Origin: Thermus sp. CCB_US3_UF1
Lineage (GTDB): Bacteria; Deinococcota; Deinococci; Deinococcales; Thermaceae
Length of the DNA: 64,000 bases
Assembly: GCF_000236585.1 (NCBI RefSeq)
Contig: NC_017278.1
Coordinates: 1,736,001 to 1,800,000 of the forward strand
Direction: 5' to 3'
A program made the translations under genes and the position numbers. Below the pieces are notes generated by a model, which made no database searches, had not been told where the DNA came from, and saw nothing but the letters and a program-made list of their open reading frames with translations. This document shows positions 12,415-23,605 of this stretch, one piece after another. The stretch's first letter is position 1. Each line of letters starts with the position of its first letter.

Positions 12415-13672
12415 GGTCGTGTCAAGAGTTATGTGTAAGAGTCTGTGTACGGGGGGCATACCGCTCCTGAAGCATCTTCTCCAGCACCTCCTTCACCTCC
12501 GAGAACCCCTTTAGTTTCCGTTCTGCCCACCTCCCTTCCTGCCTCTCCGACTCCAGGTAAAGAAGCTTGTACACCGCCTCTTCCTTAGGAAACTTGTGGT
12601 CCCGCACCTTCGTCCCCCGCCGCACTTCCCGGATAAACCGCTCCATCAGGTTGGTGCTCCGCAGGTACGGCCAAAGCACCTTGGGGTACCCGTAGAACCG
12701 CAGGAAGGCCCCCGAATCCTGTACCCAAAGCCCCACCACCCCCGGGTACCGCGAACCCCAGGCGGCCTTCACCTCCTCCAAGGCCCCAAGAGCTTCTTCC
12801 CGGCTCTCCGCCCCGTACACCCGCCTCAGGTCCTCCGCCAGCAGGCCCCGGTCCCGCGCCCGCACCTGGGACAGGCTCCACCGCACCCCGTGCACCACGC
12901 ACCGCTGCCATTCCGCCTGAGGGTAGACCCTGCGGATCGCTTCAGGAAGCCCGGGCAGCCCGTCGGTGATGAAGAGCAATACCCGCCGCAGGCCCCGCTG
13001 CCAAAGCTCCCCCAGGACCCCCTCCCATCCCAGGGCGCTCTCCGTGGGCAACAGCCAAAACCCCAGGACCCGCCTCTCCCCATTAGGGGCGATGCCCAGG
13101 GCCACATACACGCTTTCCCGTACGATCCCTTCTCCTTCCCTGAAGACCTTTAGGGAAAGCCCGTCCAGGTAGACGAAGGCCATCTCCTCGGGCAAAGGCC
13201 GGGTGCGGAAGGCTCCTGCCGCCTCCAGGACCTCGTCCGTCAGGGCGCTCAGGGTCTCGTGGGAGTAGCGGTGGCCTAAGAGCAGGCTCAGTATCTCGGC
13301 CGCCTTGCGCTGACTGACCCCGGCGGCGTAAAGGGCTACCGCCACTTCCCCCACGTCCACCAGGCGGCGGACGTAGGGCTTAAGGAAAGCCGGGTAATAC
13401 CGAGATTCCCGATCCCTAGGGACCTTCAGGTCCACCTGGCCGAAGGTGGTCTCCAGCTTGCGGGGGTAGTAGCCGTTCCTGCGGCCTCCGTGCACCTGCA
13501 AGAAGGCCGTCCGGTCCAGCTCCAGAACCGTCTGCAGAACCTCGGCTACTGTCTCCCGCACCGCTTCCCTCAGCAAGATCCGCAAGGTATCCTGGTCCAC
13601 GGGGCACCTCCTCGTGCTAAGGTGTGCCCCCCTATTAAACACGGACCCTTACACATAAATCCTTACACGACC
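12415..13672 (-). mobile_element. IS256-family element, copy 2, intact
   Basis: This 1258-bp element has imperfect terminal repeats of about 35 bp (GGTCGTGTCAAGAG at the left, GGTCGTGTAAGGAT as reverse complement at the right). It is flanked by the 8-bp direct repeat GGGAGGGA (12407-12414 and 13673-13680). Removing it and one repeat restores a continuous helicase frame, which proves the insertion point. It is the reference for judging the damage in copies 1 and 3. Confidence 0.96.
12422..13600 (-). CDS. IS256-family transposase (copy 2)
   Basis: Full-length 392-residue transposase, identical in protein sequence to copy 1. The GTG start at 13600 is preferred because GAGGAG precedes it; an upstream ATG at 13642 would add 14 residues that overlap the terminal-repeat region. 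The DDE triad lies in AFVYLDGLSLK, FITDGLPGLP and STNLMERFIREV. This copy is the likely active source of transposase in the window. Confidence 0.94.
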   Translation of the reverse strand: MDQDTLRILLREAVRETVAEVLQTVLELDRTAFLQVHGGRRNGYYPRKLETTFGQVDLKVPRDRESRYYPAFLKPYVRRLVDVGEVAVALYAAGVSQRKAAEILSLLLGHRYSHETLSALTDEVLEAAGAFRTRPLPEEMAFVYLDGLSLKVFREGEGIVRESVYVALGIAPNGERRVLGFWLLPTESALGWEGVLGELWQRGLRRVLLFITDGLPGLPEAIRRVYPQAEWQRCVVHGVRWSLSQVRARDRGLLAEDLRRVYGAESREEALGALEEVKAAWGSRYPGVVGLWVQDSGAFLRFYGYPKVLWPYLRSTNLMERFIREVRRGTKVRDHKFPKEEAVYKLLYLESERQEGRWAERKLKGFSEVKEVLEKMLQERYAPRTQTLTHNS

Positions 13673-15090: not shown

Positions 15091-15624
15091 CTAGGAGGCT
15101 CTCCCCATGGCCTCTACCTCCTCCAGGCGCCTGGGATGGAGCGGGCCAAGGGCGAAGAGGTAGAAGGCCAGGAAGGAGGCCAGGGCCACCCGCAAGGGCA
15201 GGGTCACGCCGATCCCCCCCAGGACCCCCGAGAGGGTTCCCCCTAAGGCGCCCGCCCCGTAGATCAGGGCCCGCAGGGCGGCCAGGCTCCCCGCCAGGGC
15301 CTCCTCGGGCAGCAACCACCCCCGCACGGCCCGCAGGTGGACGCCCGTGACCCCGACGGCAAACCCATAGAGCAGGCCCCCCGCGAGGAAAGGAGGGAAC
15401 GGAAGGGCCAGGAGGAGGAGGGCCCTCACCGGGTCTCCCCGGTCCAGCCGGGGGCTCAGGAGGAGCAAAGGGCCTAGGGTGAAGTACCCGAGGGCAGCGA
15501 AGAGGCCTACCCAGAAGGCCTCCCCCGTGCGGGCCACCTCCAGGCTCAAGGCGCTGAAGCCCAGGGCGGCCCCCAGGTCGCCCAGGGCCTCGGAAAGAAA
15601 GGCCAGTTTCCAGACCGGGTTCAA
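15091..15624 (-). CDS. Half-size MFS-like membrane protein
   Basis: About 178 residues with roughly six hydrophobic segments, including LWVGLFAALGYFTLGP-like, PPFLAGGLLYGFAVGVTGV, YGAGALGGTLSGVLGGIGV and ASFLAFYLFALG. It resembles part of an MFS exporter but is half the usual 400 residues. A TTG at 15624 (LNPVWKLAFLSEALG) sits five bases after the stop of the small ORF and right behind TAGAGG, so it is the likely start, translationally coupled. It is either a degenerate transporter or a half-transporter working with the 12-TM protein encoded just upstream. Confidence 0.6.
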   Translation of the reverse strand: MNPVWKLAFLSEALGDLGAALGFSALSLEVARTGEAFWVGLFAALGYFTLGPLLLLSPRLDRGDPVRALLLLALPFPPFLAGGLLYGFAVGVTGVHLRAVRGWLLPEEALAGSLAALRALIYGAGALGGTLSGVLGGIGVTLPLRVALASFLAFYLFALGPLHPRRLEEVEAMGRAS

Positions 15625-15628
15625 GCCT

Positions 15629-15757
15629 CTAGAGCGAACCCTTCCACCATCCAGATGACCCCACCTGTAATGGAGCAGGCATGGCAAAGGGGCGCACGTA
15701 CACCCGCCGCGTCCGGCCGCCGACCCTGACCTCTTGCACCTCCTTGAGCATCGCCAT
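15629..15757 (-). CDS. Small ORF, candidate peptide precursor of the radical SAM operon
   Basis: A 42-codon frame begins MAMLKEVQEVRVGG, continues TRRVYVRPFAMPAPLQ and ends VGSSGWWKGSL. It lies in the same direction as the radical SAM and MFS genes, between the two transporters, and is preceded by the same 32-bp leader that precedes the radical SAM gene (AAGGGGGTGA as ribosome site). A second Met at codon 3 gives better spacing. The basic beta-strand-prone N-terminus would fit a leader bound by an RRE. The Gly/Ser/Trp/Lys tail would fit a core, and Trp-Lys crosslinking by radical SAM enzymes is known from streptide. The role is inferred from context; no homolog is recognised. Confidence 0.5.
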   Translation of the reverse strand: MAMLKEVQEVRVGGRTRRVYVRPFAMPAPLQVGSSGWWKGSL

Positions 15758-15824: not shown

Positions 15825-17039
15825 TCACCCACGCCCCTCGGCGTCACCACGAGGGGAGAGAACCCTTTGGGAGAGGCGGAGGAGAGGGGGAAAGAGAAGG
15901 GAGGCCAGGAGGAAAACGCTCCCAAAGGCCACGAAGGCCCCCCTGGGCCCCAGGAGGTCCCCAAGCCCCCCGCCCAAGGGGGAGCCCAGGACCCGGGCCG
16001 TCTGGGTGAGGACGTTGACGTAGGCAAAGAGGCCCACCAGGGTCTCCGGGGGGGCAAGCCGCTGGAGGAAGGTCCGGAAGGCGATCCGGGCCACGGAAAC
16101 CCCCGCCCCCGAGACCAAAGACCCGAGGAGGAGGTGGGGGTAAGGGAGGAGGCCGTTCCCCAGGTTGCCCAGGCCCAGGAGGCCAAGCCCCCCGAGGAGG
16201 CCAAGGACCGGGGGGAGGGAGACGCGGGTAAGGGCCTGGGCCACAAGGAAGCCCCCCAGGCTAAAGCCCGCCCAGGCGATACCTAGCCCCTCGGGCCGCT
16301 TGAGGTCGTGGAAGAGAAGAGCGGTGAGGACCCCGCCCCCCGTGAGGGCCAGGGCAGGGAGAAGGGCAGGTAGAGCAACGGGGAGGAGAACACCCAAGGG
16401 TACACCCCCAAAGGCCTTCCGCCTCCCTTCGGAAGGGCCTAGGGGAGGAGGGGCCTTCAGGCCCAGGAGGAGGACCAGGGCCACCCCCAGAGGAAGGGCG
16501 AAGAGGGGAAGGGCGTAGGGCCCCAGGCGGTCCACGGCAAAGCCCCCTATGAGGGGGGCCAGGACCAGGCCCAAGGTATTGGCCATTTCCCAGCGGGCGT
16601 TGGCCTGGGACAGGGCCTCCTTAGGGAAGAGGCGGGGCAGGGCGCTTCCCAGTAAAACGCCGTAGATGGCCAGAGCAGCCGTAAGGAAGAGGAAGAGGGC
16701 GAGCAAGGCGGCGTAAAGGAGAAGAAAGGTGCTAAGGCCAGGGCTTCCCAGGGCGAGGAGGGCCGCTACCCCAAGGCCAAAGGCGAGGAGGCGGAGCACC
16801 ATTTGGGGCCTGGTCTCAAGCCAGGATTGGAGGAGAAAGGGGGTCAGGATGCTCGCTAAGGCTTGAACCAGGGTGAGGACCGAAGTTTGTAGCCCCGAGG
16901 CTCCCGCTTCCAGGAACCGCCATAGGCCCGCCACCACCAGGCCCTGGCCGGTCAGGGTTAGAAGGAAGGCGAGGAGGAAGAAGGAGAAGGTACCCGAGGG
17001 CGGAGTTAAATCCTTAGCCATGCTGGGACGCTGAGCCAT
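15825..17039 (-). CDS. MFS transporter, likely exporter of the radical SAM operon
   Basis: A 404-residue membrane protein with about 12 hydrophobic segments, for example FSFFLLAFLLTLTGQGLVVA, TFLLLYAALLALFLFLTAAL and LLGGLGLLGLGNLGNGL. The central WEMANTLGLVLAPLIGGF and DRLGPYALPLF resemble MFS drug or metabolite exporters. The start at 17039 overlaps the radical SAM gene by 26 bp; an internal ATG at 17021 overlaps its stop codon. Either way translation is coupled. The coupling suggests it exports or protects against the product of the radical SAM protein. Confidence 0.82.
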   Translation of the reverse strand: MAQRPSMAKDLTPPSGTFSFFLLAFLLTLTGQGLVVAGLWRFLEAGASGLQTSVLTLVQALASILTPFLLQSWLETRPQMVLRLLAFGLGVAALLALGSPGLSTFLLLYAALLALFLFLTAALAIYGVLLGSALPRLFPKEALSQANARWEMANTLGLVLAPLIGGFAVDRLGPYALPLFALPLGVALVLLLGLKAPPPLGPSEGRRKAFGGVPLGVLLPVALPALLPALALTGGGVLTALLFHDLKRPEGLGIAWAGFSLGGFLVAQALTRVSLPPVLGLLGGLGLLGLGNLGNGLLPYPHLLLGSLVSGAGVSVARIAFRTFLQRLAPPETLVGLFAYVNVLTQTARVLGSPLGGGLGDLLGPRGAFVAFGSVFLLASLLFPPLLRLSQRVLSPRGDAEGRG

Positions 17040-18489
17040 CAGCTAGAGGGATTTCGCTGGTGTAATTGGGGATAGTCCGAATGTCCACGGCATCAAAGAA
17101 GTTCGGTTGAACAGGTATTTTCCGTAGCTCTTGCAGTAGAGGCGAATTCTCCCAAATGTCGGCTAAAGTGCTCGTTAGAAGGTTGCCGAAGAACGAATAC
17201 CTGGGCCGCCACTCACGCAATTTGGCAGAAACGTAGACATTACCCCTCGGATCTACGCGAAGAGCACGATTACCCCTAGAGGTAAGCCATATCTGATCGC
17301 GGGCCGGGTTTTCCGATCTAAGTTCTCTAGAAAGCTTATACCACAGCCTTTGGTGGGGCTTAATCGCACCTAATCTAACCATGTCCATGTATTCCCCTAC
17401 AGCGAAGTCCCACTCTTCCTGGCTAAGAACGAGATGATTCAAGCTTGCCCCGCGCCCTGCGGGATACATGGGCGCAATCCCATACATAGCGTTGTTTTGT
17501 GTTGCGATTTCACCTATCTTTCTAATCTCAGTGTAGTTCTTCTTGTGAACTACCGTGAAGACAGCCAGAGGGATACCGGCTTTGGCAATGAGACTTATCT
17601 GCCGCAAGGTAGTCTTAAATCCCCCCTTACCCCGAAGCAAATCGTGGCTATCCGGACTAGATCCGTCTAAAGTGGTACCCACGAAGTTCAGATTTTTTGT
17701 GGACGCAATCTTATCTAAGTCGCTATCTCGCAACACGGACAAGTCGGTGTTAACTTGAACGCTAAACCCTAGCTCGTCCGCTAGGCGGATGATCTCCAAT
17801 CCATCTGGCCTACTCAGTGGATCACCTCCTGTGAATTCAAGGTAGAAGACCCCTTCCTTTCTTATGGAATCCAAGATATATCCCCACTCATCGAAAGTCA
17901 GCTCTTCCCGAAGAGGTATTTTGGGTTCAGGGCCGGATTCGTATGCACAGTATGCACAACGCCTATAGCACCTATTCGTGAGCTCGATTTCCATGGATAG
18001 AGGCCTATAGTACCGGTCATCGGAGAAGTGTTGATCGTCTAGGAACAAAGCTTTAGATTCCAGCCCTTCTTGAGAAGGGCGAAGGTATCCCTCGGCAATC
18101 AAGTAAAGGATTAAATGCCCCGCTGCCTCTACAAATCCCTTGGTAATTTCACTTAAGCCTCCTTCTTTGAGAACTTGCTTGAGGGCCAGCGATGGCCTAG
18201 TAGCAACTACAAAGGATCTAACAAGGTCGAAGGCTTCCTGATTGAGAAAAATGCCCCTCTTAAAGCCGTAGAGTATTCCCCCGAACCGCTCTCTGCGTAG
18301 GACAACGCTAGCGTCGCTGGCAAGGACAAGGGGCACGTCTTCGACCCAAAGCCTTTCGTATTCCGAGCCTAATCCTTCTTCGAGGTCCTCCTCGTAAGCC
18401 AATATAAAATTGCCTGTATCAATGGCAACCATCAGGAAATCATGCTGCTGGCCTACGACCTTTGGAAGTTGTAAACCCCTCTCGTGCAT
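17014..18489 (-). CDS. Radical SAM protein with PqqD/RRE-like N-terminus and cysteine-less SPASM-like C-terminus
   Basis: A 491-residue protein from ATG 18489 (GTG 18498 is possible). Residues 65-140 (FGGILYGFKRGIFLNQEAFD to YLIAEGYLRP) resemble PqqD-type RiPP recognition elements. The radical SAM core starts at MEIELTNRCYRRCAYCAY, which supplies the CxxxCxxC cluster, followed by FTGGDPLSRPDG and TTLDGSSPDSHD. The C-terminus (RALRVDPRGNVYVSA, FGNLLTSTLADIWEN) has the SPASM layout, but every SPASM cysteine is replaced; no Cys occurs after the core motif. The gene is visibly AT-richer than its neighbours with many A/T-ending codons, pointing to transfer. It probably modifies a ribosomal peptide. 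Confidence 0.87.
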   Translation of the reverse strand: MHERGLQLPKVVGQQHDFLMVAIDTGNFILAYEEDLEEGLGSEYERLWVEDVPLVLASDASVVLRRERFGGILYGFKRGIFLNQEAFDLVRSFVVATRPSLALKQVLKEGGLSEITKGFVEAAGHLILYLIAEGYLRPSQEGLESKALFLDDQHFSDDRYYRPLSMEIELTNRCYRRCAYCAYESGPEPKIPLREELTFDEWGYILDSIRKEGVFYLEFTGGDPLSRPDGLEIIRLADELGFSVQVNTDLSVLRDSDLDKIASTKNLNFVGTTLDGSSPDSHDLLRGKGGFKTTLRQISLIAKAGIPLAVFTVVHKKNYTEIRKIGEIATQNNAMYGIAPMYPAGRGASLNHLVLSQEEWDFAVGEYMDMVRLGAIKPHQRLWYKLSRELRSENPARDQIWLTSRGNRALRVDPRGNVYVSAKLREWRPRYSFFGNLLTSTLADIWENSPLLQELRKIPVQPNFFDAVDIRTIPNYTSEIPLADGSASQHG

Positions 18490-18495
18490 TTCTTC

Positions 18496-18527
18496 CACCC
18501 CCTTACGGGTTAGCCCCAGGGTAGCAG
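18496..18527 (-). repeat. Duplicated leader, copy B (before the radical SAM gene)
   Basis: On the minus strand it reads from CTGCTACCCTGGGGC to AAGGGGGTG, with one difference from copy A at 15759-15790. TACCCT (18518-18523) with a preceding TG could serve as an extended -10 box. AAGGGGGTG is the ribosome site for ATG 18489. Confidence 0.85.
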
Positions 18528-18533
18528 GGGGGA

Positions 18534-18615
18534 GGTTACGTCCAGGTTACGTGGAAGCTCTTCCCAACGATGGCCCCTGCGTAACCTCGCGTAACCTTGG
18601 ACTCCCCGCGTAACC
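18534..18615 (-). promoter_or_regulatory. Array of five CGTAACC heptamers, SARP-like operator
   Basis: Heptamer GGTTACG/CGTAACC occurs at 18534-18540, 18545-18551, 18580-18586, 18590-18596 and 18609-18615; the first two point one way on the plus strand and the last three the other. Start-to-start steps within the groups are 11, 10 and 19 bp, about one or two helical turns. The proximal heptamer ends 10 bp before a TACCCT box (18518-18523). SARP regulators are known to bind heptamer direct repeats of about 11-bp period just upstream of the -10. The neighbouring gene encodes a winged-helix/BTAD protein, so it is the natural candidate to bind here. Confidence 0.75.
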
Positions 18616-18637
18616 TCCCCCTTGGCACCCTGGAAGC

Positions 18638-18829
18638 ATGAGGCACAGGTGGCCTTGGGTTCTCCTCGTGGGATGGCTTCTCCTGGCCCTTCTAAGAGGC
18701 CCTGGTCCCGCCCCTTCCCTGGCCTGCTGGAGTCCCGACTGCTTCCCTCCCGGTTCACACCCCGTACTCCCGGCGAAGCCGCTCCACCCGGGCCCGGGCG
18801 ATGGGGTAGCGGGGATCCTCGGGGGATAG
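18638..18829 (+). CDS. Possible small membrane or exported peptide, divergent from the radical SAM gene
   Basis: A 63-codon frame starts MRHRWPWVLLVGWLLLALL, a basic end plus one hydrophobic helix, and continues through SLACWSPDCFPPGSHP. GGAAG precedes the ATG. It begins just after the last CGTAACC heptamer, so the array could serve a divergent promoter. Its last 75 bases overlap the 3' end of the BTAD regulator on the other strand, and no clear -10 box is visible. It could be a small secreted or membrane product, a second peptide substrate (two Cys), or an accident of GC-rich DNA. Confidence 0.3.
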   Translation: MRHRWPWVLLVGWLLLALLRGPGPAPSLACWSPDCFPPGSHPVLPAKPLHPGPGDGVAGILGG

Positions 18830-20239
18830 CCCCTCCAGGAGGGCCTCCCAAACCTCCAGGTCCTCCCCCAAGCGCTCTGCGAGGAGGAAGAGGGCCTCCT
18901 GGTCCCCCGAGGCCAGCACCGCCCGGCGCAGGGTCTCCTCCAGTTCTAGGCGGAGCGCCTCCACCCCCGGGGCCTGGCTCCAGGGGAGGAGGGGGCCCTG
19001 GTAAAGGGCAAGGGCCTGTTCCAGGTCTCTCCCGGAAAGGGCCCTGAGAAAGGCCAAAAGGTCCGAGGGAGGAGGGTCTTCCAGACGGTAGGGGGCGCAG
19101 GAGATCCGGAAGCCCTTGGCCCGCAGGCGGTGGAGGAGGGTCTTCAAGGCCCCTAGGTTGGGTTCCCCGTAGAGGGCCTCCGCCAGGGCTTCTCCCGATA
19201 TGCCCTTCTCGTGGGCAAGGAGGAGGGCCAGCGCCTCCGTGCCCCTAGGCCCTAAGGAGGGTAGGGGACCTCCGTCAAGGAGGCGGAGGGAGGTCTCCTC
19301 CCCTCGGCCCAGCAGGAAGGCCCGGGCCTCGGGGCGGAGGGCGGGGGCCAGGCGGGGGGCCAGTGGGGCCTCTACCTCCGCCCCCAGGGCCCTGAGGCGG
19401 GCCTCGGCCAGGAGGGCGTAGAGGGCCCCGTCCTCCCGGAGGAGGCCGTGGGCGGAGAGGAGGAGATCCCTGGCCGCCTCCCCCCCTTCCAGGAGCCCCT
19501 GGGCCAGGAGGAGGAAGCCCTGGGACCACCCCGCCTGGGGGCCGGCCTGGGCCGCTTCCAGGAGGAGCCGGGCCCTAAGGGGTTCCAGGGCCAAGGCCCC
19601 AAGGACCAGGAAGCTCGGGAGGCTGCCCGGGCCCAGGAGGGGAAGGAGGCCCTGGAGGAGGGTCCGGGCCCGCCGGGGCTGGCCCCGGAGGAGGTGGGCC
19701 AGGGCCAGGGTGTGCCCGGCCAGGAGGCGCACCCCGGGCAGCTCGTGGAGCAGGAACTCCTCCCCCTCTTCCAGGACCTCGGGGAGGGGAAGGGCGCCGA
19801 AGAAGAGCTCCAGGCGGAGGTGGTGGAGCCGGGTCCAGGGGGAAGGGGCCTTGAGGCGGGCCAAGGCGGCATGGGCCAGGGCCTCGGGACGGCCCAGGCG
19901 CTCCAGGACCACCGCCAGGGCCAGGTGGAGCCGGGCCTCCGCCTGGGAGTTCCCCCGGAAGCGGTGGAGGGCCTCCTCCAGGGCCACCGCCCCTTCCCTC
20001 GGGGGCAGGGCGAGGCCCAGGTGGTAGAGGGTGAGGGGGGTCTGGGCCCTCCGGGCGGCCTCCAGGGCCAGGGCCCGGTACCCTCCCCAGTCCCCCTTGC
20101 GGCCCTCCAGGAAGCCCAGGAGGGCCAGGCGCTCCGCCTCGGGGAGGCCTTCTTGGGGGGTTTGGAGGAGGGCCAGGGCCTCCCGGTCCTTTCCCCCCTC
20201 CAGGAGGCGGAGGGCGATGGGGAGGCGGGATGGGTCCAT
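18755..20239 (-). CDS. TPR / winged-helix / BTAD transcriptional regulator (SARP-like)
   Basis: A 494-residue protein. Residues 1-300 are helical Leu/Ala-rich repeats of TPR type (LALLGFLEGRKGDWGGYRAL, LYHLGLALPPREGAVALEEA). Residues 320-390 form an OmpR/SARP-like winged helix (LGPRGTEALALLLAHEKGIS, EALYGEPNLGALKTLLHRLR). Residues 395-494 are a bacterial transcriptional activator domain (FLRALSGRDLEQALALYQGP, EALRLELEETLRRAVL). BTAD proteins of the SARP type activate secondary-metabolite operons. It lies just upstream of the heptamer array and the radical SAM operon in the same direction, so it is the likely activator. The TPR part may sense a partner or peptide. Confidence 0.82.
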   Translation of the reverse strand: MDPSRLPIALRLLEGGKDREALALLQTPQEGLPEAERLALLGFLEGRKGDWGGYRALALEAARRAQTPLTLYHLGLALPPREGAVALEEALHRFRGNSQAEARLHLALAVVLERLGRPEALAHAALARLKAPSPWTRLHHLRLELFFGALPLPEVLEEGEEFLLHELPGVRLLAGHTLALAHLLRGQPRRARTLLQGLLPLLGPGSLPSFLVLGALALEPLRARLLLEAAQAGPQAGWSQGFLLLAQGLLEGGEAARDLLLSAHGLLREDGALYALLAEARLRALGAEVEAPLAPRLAPALRPEARAFLLGRGEETSLRLLDGGPLPSLGPRGTEALALLLAHEKGISGEALAEALYGEPNLGALKTLLHRLRAKGFRISCAPYRLEDPPPSDLLAFLRALSGRDLEQALALYQGPLLPWSQAPGVEALRLELEETLRRAVLASGDQEALFLLAERLGEDLEVWEALLEGLSPEDPRYPIARARVERLRREYGV

Positions 20240-20336: not shown

Positions 20337-20576
20337 CTATTCGTCAAAGCCCAGGGCCCGGAGGTAGCGCTTCACCAGGTAGTAGGGCTTGCGGGCCAGG
20401 TAGTCCTTGCCCTGCTCCACCCGCAAGACCCAGTGGGGCCGGAGGCCCAGCATCCGGGCGAACCGGGTGGCGGAGACTCCCAGGGTCTCCCGCCTGCGCT
20501 TGAGCTCGGCGATGAACTCCTCATCAAAGAGGAGTTCCTCCGTGATCTTGACCTTGCCCTCGAACTTTCCTCCCAT
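20337..20576 (-). CDS. Small helix-turn-helix (XRE-like) protein
   Basis: A 79-residue protein from ATG 20576 with a helix-turn-helix of XRE type, RRETLGVSATRFARMLGLRP then HWVLRVEQGKDYL. Such one-domain proteins act as antitoxin-like or regulatory DNA binders. No toxin gene is adjacent. The 3' end of the tnpB frame overlaps its first 53 bases, showing that the tnpB element landed immediately upstream and may have separated the gene from its original promoter or partner. Confidence 0.7.
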   Translation of the reverse strand: MGGKFEGKVKITEELLFDEEFIAELKRRRETLGVSATRFARMLGLRPHWVLRVEQGKDYLARKPYYLVKRYLRALGFDE

Positions 20577-21792
20577 GGCGTTCTCCCCCTTCTCCTTGGT
20601 CCTGTGACGACTCCTCGGACTGAAGTCCGAGGCTTCTCGGTTCCCAAGATACGGGCTTCGCCCGTGACCACGGGACGGCCCACGCCGTACCCATCCCCGA
20701 AGGCCCCGTCCAGGCCCTTGCCAGAACATTCAGCGCGGCGGCCACATCCCGATGCAGGGGAGTCCCACAACCCGGACAGGTAAATTCCCTCACCCAGAGG
20801 GGACGCTTTTCCCGGTGGCCGCACACTGGACAGTCCTGGCTTGTATGTTGGGGGTCTACCCCCACGACCCGCCTACCAGCTTCTTCCGCTTTGTAGGCGA
20901 GGATTTGGAGAAACTGCGCCCAACCCGCATCCAGAACTCCTTTGGATAGACGGGAGCGGGATAGGGCTTGGATGTTCAGATTCTCGTGAACGATGGTTCC
21001 ATAGGTATTGACCAGCCTCCTTGCAATTTTATGGTGGAAGTCTTTGCGCTGGTTGGCGATTTTGCGGTGCAGCTTGGCAACCCGCTTTCTGGCCTTCTCG
21101 CGACGACGGCTGCCCCGCTTCTTGCGGGCAAGGCTGCGCTGTGCGGCGGCGAGTTTGGCTTGCGCCTTGTGGAGGTACCGGGGGGCCTCGACCATCTCCC
21201 CGTCGGAGGTGACGAGGAAGTGGGGGTTGGTGCCCAGGTCTATCCCGATGGCCCGGTTGTTGGAGGGAAGGGGCTTGGGGTCCACCTCGCAGACGAAGAC
21301 GATGTACCACTCTTCCCCCTCCCTTTTGACCGTGGCGGTCTTCGGTTTCCCCTCCAGAGGACGGTGGAACTTGCACTTGACCGAGCCGATGCCGTACAAC
21401 AGTACCCGACCCTTTTGAACCTTGACTCCTGTTTTATCCGCTTGGGGGAAGGTGAAGGAGTCGTAGCGCCCCTGCCCCTTGAAGCGGGGATAGCCCGCTT
21501 TCCCCTTGGCCTTAAGCCGTCGGAAGAAGCCCTGGAAGGCTTTGTCCACCCGCTCGATGACGTTCTGCAAGACCTGGGAATGAATGCGCTTGTACTCCGG
21601 CAGCTCGGCCCGTATCTCGGGCAGATACCTCTTCTGTTCGTAGAAGCCGACAGTCCTCCCGCCCTTCTTGTAGGCATCTCTACGCTCCTGCAAGGCGGCG
21701 TTGTACAGGCTGCGGCACAGCGCAAGGGTGCGCTCCAGGTCTTTTTGCTGGGGCCGGGTGGGGTAGAGTCGGTACTTGAACGCCTTATGCAT
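20524..21792 (-). CDS. tnpB: TnpB (IS605/IS1341 OrfB), RNA-guided nuclease family
   Basis: A 422-residue TnpB starting MHKAFKYRLYPTRPQQKDLE. RuvC-type residues are Asp in AIGIDLGTNPHFLVTS, Glu in IVHENLNIQALS and Asp in LHRDVAAALNVLAR. The zinc finger is CPVCGHREKRPLWVREFTCPGC with the pair CxxC-CxxC. TnpB proteins are omega-RNA-guided DNA nucleases that help retain the transposon. The normal end lies near NVLARAWTGPSG. The last about 35 codons read through the right-end hairpin into the next gene, so the true C-terminus may be shorter. The overlapping tnpA is reduced to a stub. Confidence 0.9.
   Translation of the reverse strand: MHKAFKYRLYPTRPQQKDLERTLALCRSLYNAALQERRDAYKKGGRTVGFYEQKRYLPEIRAELPEYKRIHSQVLQNVIERVDKAFQGFFRRLKAKGKAGYPRFKGQGRYDSFTFPQADKTGVKVQKGRVLLYGIGSVKCKFHRPLEGKPKTATVKREGEEWYIVFVCEVDPKPLPSNNRAIGIDLGTNPHFLVTSDGEMVEAPRYLHKAQAKLAAAQRSLARKKRGSRRREKARKRVAKLHRKIANQRKDFHHKIARRLVNTYGTIVHENLNIQALSRSRLSKGVLDAGWAQFLQILAYKAEEAGRRVVGVDPQHTSQDCPVCGHREKRPLWVREFTCPGCGTPLHRDVAAALNVLARAWTGPSGMGTAWAVPWSRAKPVSWEPRSLGLQSEESSQDQGEGGERHGRKVRGQGQDHGGTPL
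20605..20740 (-). ncRNA. Putative omega-RNA / right-end hairpins of the tnpB element
   Basis: The 3' end of tnpB holds two hairpins: CGGGCTTCGCCCG (20652-20664) and the perfect CCTCGGACTGAAGTCCGAGG (20613-20632). Hairpins at this place are the right end of IS605-type elements and the scaffold of TnpB guide RNAs. The guide would be the bases directly beyond the element, near 20585-20610. The exact boundary and the RNA itself are inferred. Confidence 0.5.
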
Positions 21793-21845: not shown

Positions 21846-22996
21846 GGTCGTGTAAGGATTTATGTGTAAGGGTCCGTGTTTAATAGGGGGGCACACCTTA
21901 GCACGAGGAGGTGCCCCGTGGACCAGGATACCTTGCGGATCTTGCTGAGGGAAGCGGTGCGGGAGACAGTAGCCGAGGTTCTGCAGACGGTTCTGGAGCT
22001 GGACCGGACGGCCTTCTTGCAGGTGCACGGAGGCCGCAGGAACGGCTACTACCCCCGCAAGCTGGAGACCACCTTCGGCCAGGTGGACCTGAAGGTCCCT
22101 AGGGATCGGGAATCTCGGTATTACCCGGCTTTCCTTAAGCCCTACGTCCGCCGCCTGGTGGACGTGGGGGAAGTGGCGGTAGCCCTTTACGCCGCCGGGG
22201 TCAGTCAGCGCAAGGCGGCCGAGATACTGAGCCTGCTCTTAGGCCACCGCTACTCCCACGAGACCCTGAGCGCCCTGACGGACGAGGTCCTGGAGGCGGC
22301 AGGAGCCTTCCGCACCCGGCCTTTGCCCGAGGAGATGGCCTTCGTCTACCTGGACGGGCTTTCCCTAAAGGTCTTCAGGGAAGGAGAAGGGATCGTACGG
22401 GAAAGCGTGTATGTGGCCCTGGGCATCGCCCCTAATGGGGAGAGGCGGGTCCTGGGGTTTTGGCTGTTGCCCACGGAGAGCGCCCTGGGATGGGAGGGGG
22501 TCCTGGGGGAGCTTTGGCAGCGGGGCCTGCGGCGGGTATTGCTCTTCATCACCGACGGGCTGCCCGGGCTTCCTGAAGCGATCCGCAGGGTCTACCCTCA
22601 GGCGGAATGGCAGCGGTGCGTGGTGCACGGGGTGCGGTGGAGCCTGTCCCAGGTGCGGGCGCGGGACCGGGGCCTGCTGGCGGAGGACCTGAGGCGGGTG
22701 TACGGGGCGGAGAGCCGGGAAGAAGCTCTTGGGGCCTTGGAGGAGGTGAAGGCCGCCTGGGGTTCGCGGTACCCGGGGGTGGTGGGGCTTTGGGTACAGG
22801 ATTCGGGGGCCTTCCTGCGGTTCTACGGGTACCCCAAGGTGCTTTGGCCGTACCTGCGGAGCACCAACCTGATGGAGCGGTTTATCCGGGAAGTGCGGCG
22901 GGGGACGAAGGTGCGGGACCACAAGTTTCCTAAGGAAGAGGCGGTGTACAAGCTTCTTTACCTGGAGTCGGAGAGGCAGGAAGGGAGGTGGGCAGA
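21846..22996 (+). mobile_element. IS256-family element, copy 3, truncated
   Basis: It begins with GGTCGTGTAAGGATTTATG, the transposase-start-side terminal repeat, and is identical to copy 2 until GGGCAGA at 22996. The last 107 bp, including the other terminal repeat, are missing. At the left it cuts tnpA, and at the right it joins a tyrosine recombinase gene that lacks its N-terminus. With one end lost, it cannot transpose by itself. Confidence 0.93.
21918..22996 (+). pseudogene. IS256-family transposase, 3'-truncated (copy 3)
   Basis: From GTG 21918 the frame is identical to the other copies through ERQEGRWAER, then enters recombinase DNA in a wrong frame. About 32 C-terminal residues are replaced. 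The catalytic DDE residues are all upstream of the break, so a protein could be made, but the loss of the C-terminal helix and of one IS end suggests it is inactive. Confidence 0.85.
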
Positions 22997-23605
22997 GAGG
23001 AGGAACTGGCTAAGATCCTGGAAGCCGCCCGGCAACACCGCCTCTTCCCCCTCTTCTACCTCGCCGCCGCCTTCGGCCTCCGAAGAGGCGAGGTCCTCGG
23101 CCTCACCTGGCCCGACATAGACCTGGAAAAGGGCGAGCTCCACATACGCCGCGCCCTCGTCAAAGACCTCGCGTCTAACAAGCCCATCCTGACGGGTACC
23201 AAAACCCCCACCTCCAACCGCACCATCCCCCTCACCGAAGAAGCCATCGCCATCCTGGAAGAACACCGCCAGCGCCTCATAGACGACGGCCTCTACCAAC
23301 CCAACGGCCTCGTCTTCCCTTCCCTCTCCGGTACCCCCATCCGCCCGGAAAACCTCAAACGGGCCTGGAAATCCATCCTCAACAAGGCCGGGGTGAAGTA
23401 CGCCCGCCTCCACGACCTCCGGGGGACCTTCCTCACCCGGGTCATCCGCCAAACCGGGAACCCCAAACTCGCCGCCGCCCTAGCAGGCCACAAAACCCTC
23501 TCCACCACCCTCAAGCACTACACCCACATCTCCCAAGAAGAACTCAAATCCACCCTCCGCTCCCTTCAGGTCTTGCCAAAGGATAAGGACCCCGAAGACA
23601 ATTGA
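22997..23605 (+). pseudogene. Tyrosine recombinase/integrase, N-terminus missing
   Basis: About 200 residues of the catalytic domain are present: Arg in AAAFGLRRGEVLGLTW, the His-x-x-Arg pair in ARLHDLRGTFLTRV, His in AALAGHKTLSTT and the nucleophile Tyr in LKHYTHISQEEL. The N-terminal core-binding domain is gone at the IS256 junction. A GTG within the IS (22988) could start a truncated protein. Phage and island integrases often lie next to their tRNA target, and this one ends 70 bp from tRNA-Val. It probably brought in part of the accessory region to its left. Confidence 0.88.

Follow-up and report, generated by a model that had tools for sequence, protein, structure and literature searches.

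Our analysis reports on a cluster of five CGTAACC heptamers in Thermus sp. CCB_US3_UF1, which is probably the operator of a divergent promoter in an auto-inducing switch, built from a TPR-SARP regulator and a peptide signal, for a RiPP operon. The DNA studied was a 64-kb window of the 2.26-Mb genome, the window being the whole stretch that was analysed. The array, the two-sided promoter grammar around it, a conserved coding peptide, the predicted fold of the regulator and the joint variation of the elements were computed directly; the peptide would then be exported, processed, re-imported and sensed by the TPR domain. The elements of the unit, in window coordinates, are:

15825-17039, minus strand: MFS transporter, second gene of the operon
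17014-18489, minus strand: radical SAM/SPASM enzyme, RiPP-maturase-like, first gene of the operon
18518-18523, minus strand: TACCCT, -10 box of the radical SAM operon, conserved in position
18534-18540, minus strand: heptamer CGTAACC (top strand GGTTACG), proximal site of the operon promoter, 10 bp from its -10 box
18545-18551, minus strand: heptamer CGTAACC (top strand GGTTACG), second site of the operon promoter, 11-bp period
18580-18586, plus strand: heptamer CGTAACC, distal site of the peptide promoter
18590-18596, plus strand: heptamer CGTAACC, middle site of the peptide promoter
18609-18615, plus strand: heptamer CGTAACC, proximal site of the peptide promoter, 10 bp from its -10 box
18626-18631, plus strand: CACCCT, -10 box of the peptide gene, 6 nt before the ATG, conserved in position
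18638-18829, plus strand: small peptide precursor, 63 aa, a signal-peptide-like leader followed by CWSPDCFPPG
18725-18754, plus strand: peptide core CWSPDCFPPG, directly after the leader
18755-20239, minus strand: TPR-SARP regulator, 494 aa, named from its predicted structure

All five exact heptamers that the first-pass annotation had described within 82 bp are present at these positions: two in one orientation with a period of 11 bp, and three in the opposite orientation at steps of 10 and 19 bp, with the TACCCT box on the minus strand 10 bp from the nearest heptamer, as had been stated. The description of the array as being in helical phase is right for the steps of 11 and 10 bp; the 19-bp step fits it only loosely. 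On the minus strand the operon promoter reads CGTAACC-TGGA-CGTAACC-N10-TACCCT, followed after 28 nt by the ATG of the radical SAM gene (18489). What had been overlooked is that the plus-strand group has its own -10 box and its own gene; this promoter reads CGTAACC-TCG-CGTAACC-N12-CGTAACC-N10-CACCCT, and the ATG of the peptide gene follows after 6 nt at 18638. The two promoters are symmetric and stand back to back, with the last heptamer on each side exactly 10 bp before the -10 box. As the -10 box of the peptide gene lies only 6 nt before the start codon, the peptide mRNA is probably leaderless. The earlier suggestion of divergent or looped regulation is supported in its divergent part; no evidence was found for looping, nor does the explanation require it.

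The first-pass annotation had held that its reading of the array would fall if the heptamer were common genome-wide, or if homologous loci with the regulator lacked it. Pattern searches of the genome show that the word alone is not rare, with 97 copies against 62 for the reversed control, but that the cluster is, so that the first objection fails for the array. CGTAACC is alone among all heptamers of the 64-kb window in having five copies within 82 bp, and a cluster of this kind, of which about 6e-10 would be expected per genome under a Poisson model, occurs once in the genome. There is no second place in the genome with paired CGTAACC heptamers, and exact matches to the pattern heptamer-N10-(-10) are limited to the two array sites. 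A reading of the lone heptamer as a genome-wide regulon word was rejected, the 97 copies being scattered and the full pattern exact only at the array. The array was also considered as the end of an insertion sequence or as an iteron, and this was rejected because the array stands at a fixed distance from the -10 boxes and its heptamer varies with the regulator.

The second objection fails as well, since the array is kept in homologous loci. The unit, comprising the regulator, the divergent array, an antisense gene for a CX4CXPP peptide and variable cargo, is found in Thermus, Meiothermus and two other families, and the same anatomy is retained in loci whose regulator identity is about 45-100%. 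Of 27 genomes in the genus, 17 have this DNA-binding class of regulator and all 17 have paired CGTAACC arrays, which are absent from the 10 without that class (Fisher p 1.2e-7, phylogeny ignored); the geometry is nearly constant among these arrays. A profile of the regulator matches 38 of 50 Thermaceae genomes, some of the matches being partial or to the C-terminal half alone, and three genomes from other families of the order. Named records with the regulator are those of T. composti, T. scotoductus, T. parvatiensis, T. igniterrae and Meiothermus granaticius, and plasmid pTTJL1802 of Thermus thermophilus JL-18 carries an identical copy of the element. Where regulator identity falls to 45-60%, the layout is unchanged and the heptamers are CGTTACC, GGTTACC and CGTGACG. 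Across 41 loci, many of them closely related so that the counts are not independent events, the heptamer-N10-(-10) spacing was found on the operon side in 37 (2% of shuffles), and 29 loci have it on the peptide side, where the -10 box lies six nt ahead of the start codon (0% of shuffles).

Several variants of the layout were seen among these loci, which we denote by L numbers. Extra copies of the array and peptide gene without a full regulator occur at L116, L117, L114, L105 and L110; these copies retain approximately the last 25 codons of the regulator gene, and a single regulator may thus serve several cassettes. At L118 and L121 the centre of the array is inverted and heptamers are missing, as if inverted repeats had recombined. 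At L192 (genome G108), from another family, a regulator of 36% identity is followed downstream by four CGTTACC/CGTTACT words with an 11-bp period, and a short divergent ORF encodes a leader and one Cys. In the window, the space between the heptamer groups contains a central dyad, GGAAN4TTCC (approximately 18552-18565), which is seen in 23 of 28 class-A arrays and could be the site of a second factor.

The peptide ORF was absent from the first-pass annotation, and also from the gene table of the JL-18 plasmid locus, which is known to be incomplete. The leader of the precursor is basic, then hydrophobic, and ends in PSLA immediately before the core. In the window the 3' part of the ORF is antisense to the regulator gene, the two being convergent neighbours with an overlap of 75 nt. 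The ORF is coding and under purifying selection, with a dN/dS in the non-overlapping part of 0.35 for Thermus class A and 0.44 for Meiothermus, and its coding bias vanishes in the other two frames. No family in Pfam or NCBIfam matched the peptide. Relatives have antisense ORFs in the same place, in which a leader segment precedes the core CWDPNCVPP, CLAPHCPPP, CLDLGCWPP, CFRSECMPP, CTRPDCLPP, CKSPDCLPP or CNNPQCVSP; in most relatives the precursor is similar in size to the 63 aa seen here, or shorter. An A-x-A-like site precedes the first Cys in the class of the window and in Meiothermus, and class C is without a canonical site. The loci with class D regulators (L167, L168 and L177) have a degenerate peptide ORF that lacks the CX4CXPP core, with the operon-side promoter spacing still kept in two of the three, and the peptide ORF of L055 has a frameshift close to its start.

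The AlphaFold2 model of the regulator is confident (pLDDT 86.8) and predicts a TPR solenoid (residues 6-310), a winged helix (330-386) and BTAD-like helices (393-492). No Pfam or NCBIfam model names the window protein, in which Pfam sees neither TPR nor BTAD; the Pfam TPR models that miss it match its relatives weakly, these being about 479-514 aa in length against 494 aa in the window, and a sequence search of PDB chains with the regulator profile gave nothing better than E 0.4. When modelled alone, the C-terminal half matches AfsR with Z 11.9 (26% identity over 176 residues) and EmbR with Z 9.4, and the next unrelated row has Z 6.3. As both matches stand well above that row, the predicted structure identifies the C-terminal half as a SARP domain with AfsR as its closest solved structure, in support of the first-pass view that SARP-type sites lie here beside a winged-helix/BTAD protein. 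DNA binding by the regulator is well supported, and we infer that it binds the array and activates transcription. The structural matches of the TPR part span approximately 270-300 residues and include MalT domain III (Z 21.3), a degron receptor (21.6) and the peptide receptors Rap with bound pheromones (18.7-20.0), NprR (17.5) and AimR (15.1-17.2). A peptide ligand for the TPR domain is plausible from this predicted fold; given that MalT domain III and the degron receptor score as high as Rap, the fold alone is no proof of one.

The heptamer differs by regulator class, reading CGTAACC, CGTTACC, GGTTACC or CGTGACG. The middle of the TPR domain (residues 131-320) is the most variable long stretch of the regulator, with 34-37% identity between classes A and C as against about 61% in the SARP half. 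Among 19 loci, peptide-core distance tracks the middle TPR best (partial Mantel 0.36, p 0.0005, SARP half controlled), and the reverse test, for the SARP half with the middle TPR controlled, gives 0.19 (p 0.04). The peptide core follows the middle TPR even though the peptide gene lies closer to the part of the regulator gene that encodes the SARP half. A natural chimera, L055, has a class-C TPR domain, is of class A from the recognition helix onward and has a class-A array. A reading of it as proof that heptamer and recognition helix go together was rejected, and it is taken only as support, since the swapped tract runs on into the array. The array, the peptide gene and the SARP half are adjacent, so that their co-inheritance, that of the chimera included, could be linkage.

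The cargo of the unit is diverse, its theme being mostly RiPP-type synthesis and export. In the window no RiPP precursor was recognised behind the operon and no peptide importer was identified. Elsewhere the cargo includes StsB-like and TIGR04463-like radical SAM maturases, which fall below their curated cut-offs, a DUF4135-domain protein (the LanM enzyme domain) and a C39-like protein, a QueC-like protein with an ABC transporter, and beta-propeller-like proteins (weak matches) with an MFS transporter. In Meiothermus, precursor-like genes of 80-100 aa ending in CPC-x-(A/V)-G-I lie right after the promoter. The products are likely bacteriocins.

We propose a model for the activity of the unit in which the SARP half would bind the heptamers upstream of each -10 box and recruit RNA polymerase to two weak promoters, one of which would lead to the RiPP-type operon with its radical SAM enzyme and exporter, and the other to the peptide precursor, probably on a leaderless mRNA. 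Cleavage of the signal peptide would release a mature peptide starting with CWSPDCFPPG, which would build up outside the cell, re-enter it, bind the TPR solenoid and turn the regulator on. Because the peptide gene is under the same heptamers, this arrangement would provide positive feedback and switch the operon in a density-dependent manner. The peptide gene behind the second heptamer group and the receptor-like TPR domain make the array look like the output of a peptide circuit, beyond a SARP operator. A wider proposal, on which we are evenly divided, is that these sets of TPR-SARP regulator and CX4CXPP peptide form a separate class of intracellular peptide-pheromone signalling in a diderm phylum, spread through the order together with their operators and controlling diverse RiPP, probably bacteriocin, operons by auto-induction in a density-dependent way.

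The TPR domain could instead sense a metabolite, such as a sugar, or a partner protein, with the peptide as a co-regulated secreted effector, for example in antimicrobial action or self-protection; we consider this rather unlikely. MalT is a maltotriose-binding STAND ATPase with a LuxR-type HTH, and its domain III is structurally as close to the TPR part as is Rap. The CX4C motif at the start of the mature chain could close by a disulfide, as might suit an effector, and the peptide is co-regulated with export operons. An effector would nevertheless have no need to lie inside the regulator-promoter cassette in every genus, and the peptide is tied to the regulator across cargo types and to no particular cargo; its core also varies more with the middle TPR than with the SARP half.

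That the peptide is the RiPP precursor of the cargo enzymes, with the array merely co-expressing precursor and maturase, seems to us very improbable. Its two conserved Cys are of the kind that radical SAM and related maturases typically modify, and its gene is divergent to the adjoining radical SAM gene, but the same peptide class accompanies unrelated cargo (QueC-like with ABC, beta-propeller-like with MFS, LanM-domain), and some Meiothermus cargo operons carry small precursor-like genes of their own. The leader of this peptide is Sec-like, whereas RiPP maturases work on leader peptides in the cytosol. It is scarcely credible that the antisense ORF acts mainly as RNA, damping the regulator through convergent transcription in a negative feedback in which the peptide is minor. 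The plus-strand transcript would indeed enter the 3' end of the regulator gene in antisense at every locus, and in the window the two overlap by 75 nt; against this, selection on the coding frame is seen in the part outside the overlap, and the leader and CX4CXPP core are conserved across families.

The peptide-signal switch that we favour can be compared with several known systems. The signature of RRNPP systems is a Sec-secreted propeptide of 10-100 aa and a neighbouring receptor of about 250-500 aa whose TPRs recognise the mature peptide (PMC10075063), and such systems have been described in Firmicutes (PMC10075063, PMC9765709). As in the RRNPP(A) group (Rap, Rgg, NprR, PlcR, PrgX and AimR), a gene for a small, putatively secreted propeptide adjoins that of a putative cytoplasmic TPR receptor here, the two being direct neighbours, and the 63-aa precursor and 494-aa regulator are within the size ranges; the predicted TPR fold is near Rap, NprR and AimR, and peptide and TPR vary together. 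The unit differs in that the DNA-binding half is a C-terminal SARP rather than an N-terminal Xre-type HTH (or none, as in Rap), in the CX4CXPP core right after the leader, and in its host phylum, the diderm Deinococcota. A relation in sequence to the known receptors is not detectable, and for this reason and because of the different domain plan we liken the unit to RRNPP systems and do not class it among them. It also shares a TPR superhelix with MalT-type regulators (domain III), with an equal structural score.

SARP operators are direct repeats with a period of 11 or 22 bp, or 10 bp for PimR, and their last repeat is 8 bp from the -10 box (PMC10936776, PMC5930380, PMC10972967). The regulator resembles the SARPs (AfsR, ActII-ORF4, PimR) and EmbR in the predicted order of an OmpR-type winged helix and then BTAD, in heptamer repeats of 10 or 11 bp just upstream of a weak -10 box and in having natural-product operons as its probable target. 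In contrast to SARPs, its last repeat lies 10 bp from the -10 box, its array is common to two divergent promoters and a peptide gene is part of the unit, and the order of the large SARPs (SARP-NOD-TPR) is inverted, with TPR first, SARP last and no NOD. DnrS of Thermus thermophilus, a GAF activator with a C-terminal BTAD, controls nitrate respiration from a mobile gene cluster (PMC5748679); it is likewise a Thermus regulator with a C-terminal BTAD, but has a GAF-type sensor in place of TPR and no described peptide partner. A literature search on Thermus quorum sensing, RRNPP in Deinococcota, Thermus BTAD proteins and Thermus RiPPs, with sparse coverage of subscription journals, returned no description of the unit, and DnrS was the only partial parallel.

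If our reading is correct, the unit would add a new type of bacterial peptide signalling, and one that lies outside the group known to have such systems; TPR-read pheromone signalling would have arisen in, or moved to, phyla well beyond Firmicutes. Thermus and Meiothermus would have a parallel system that uses the DNA-binding half of Streptomyces antibiotic regulators, and silent RiPP operons could be woken by added peptide. The copy on pTTJL1802 in T. thermophilus JL-18 makes the idea directly testable, and the natural classes of receptor and peptide provide specificity controls.

In the surroundings of the unit, an N-terminal stub of the beta-propeller-like cargo family, MLKEVQEVRVGGRTRRVYVRPFA (15629-15757, minus strand), lies next to a transporter-like remnant (15091-15687, minus strand), a scar that an earlier cargo cassette has left behind the radical SAM operon. 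Immediately upstream of the regulator is an IS605-type OrfB/TnpB-like gene with a Cas12f1-like TNB domain (20524-21792, minus strand). Two inverted IS256/Mutator-type copies (12422-13642, minus strand, and 21876-23120, plus strand), identical over 1152 bp, flank the whole unit in the manner of a composite element.
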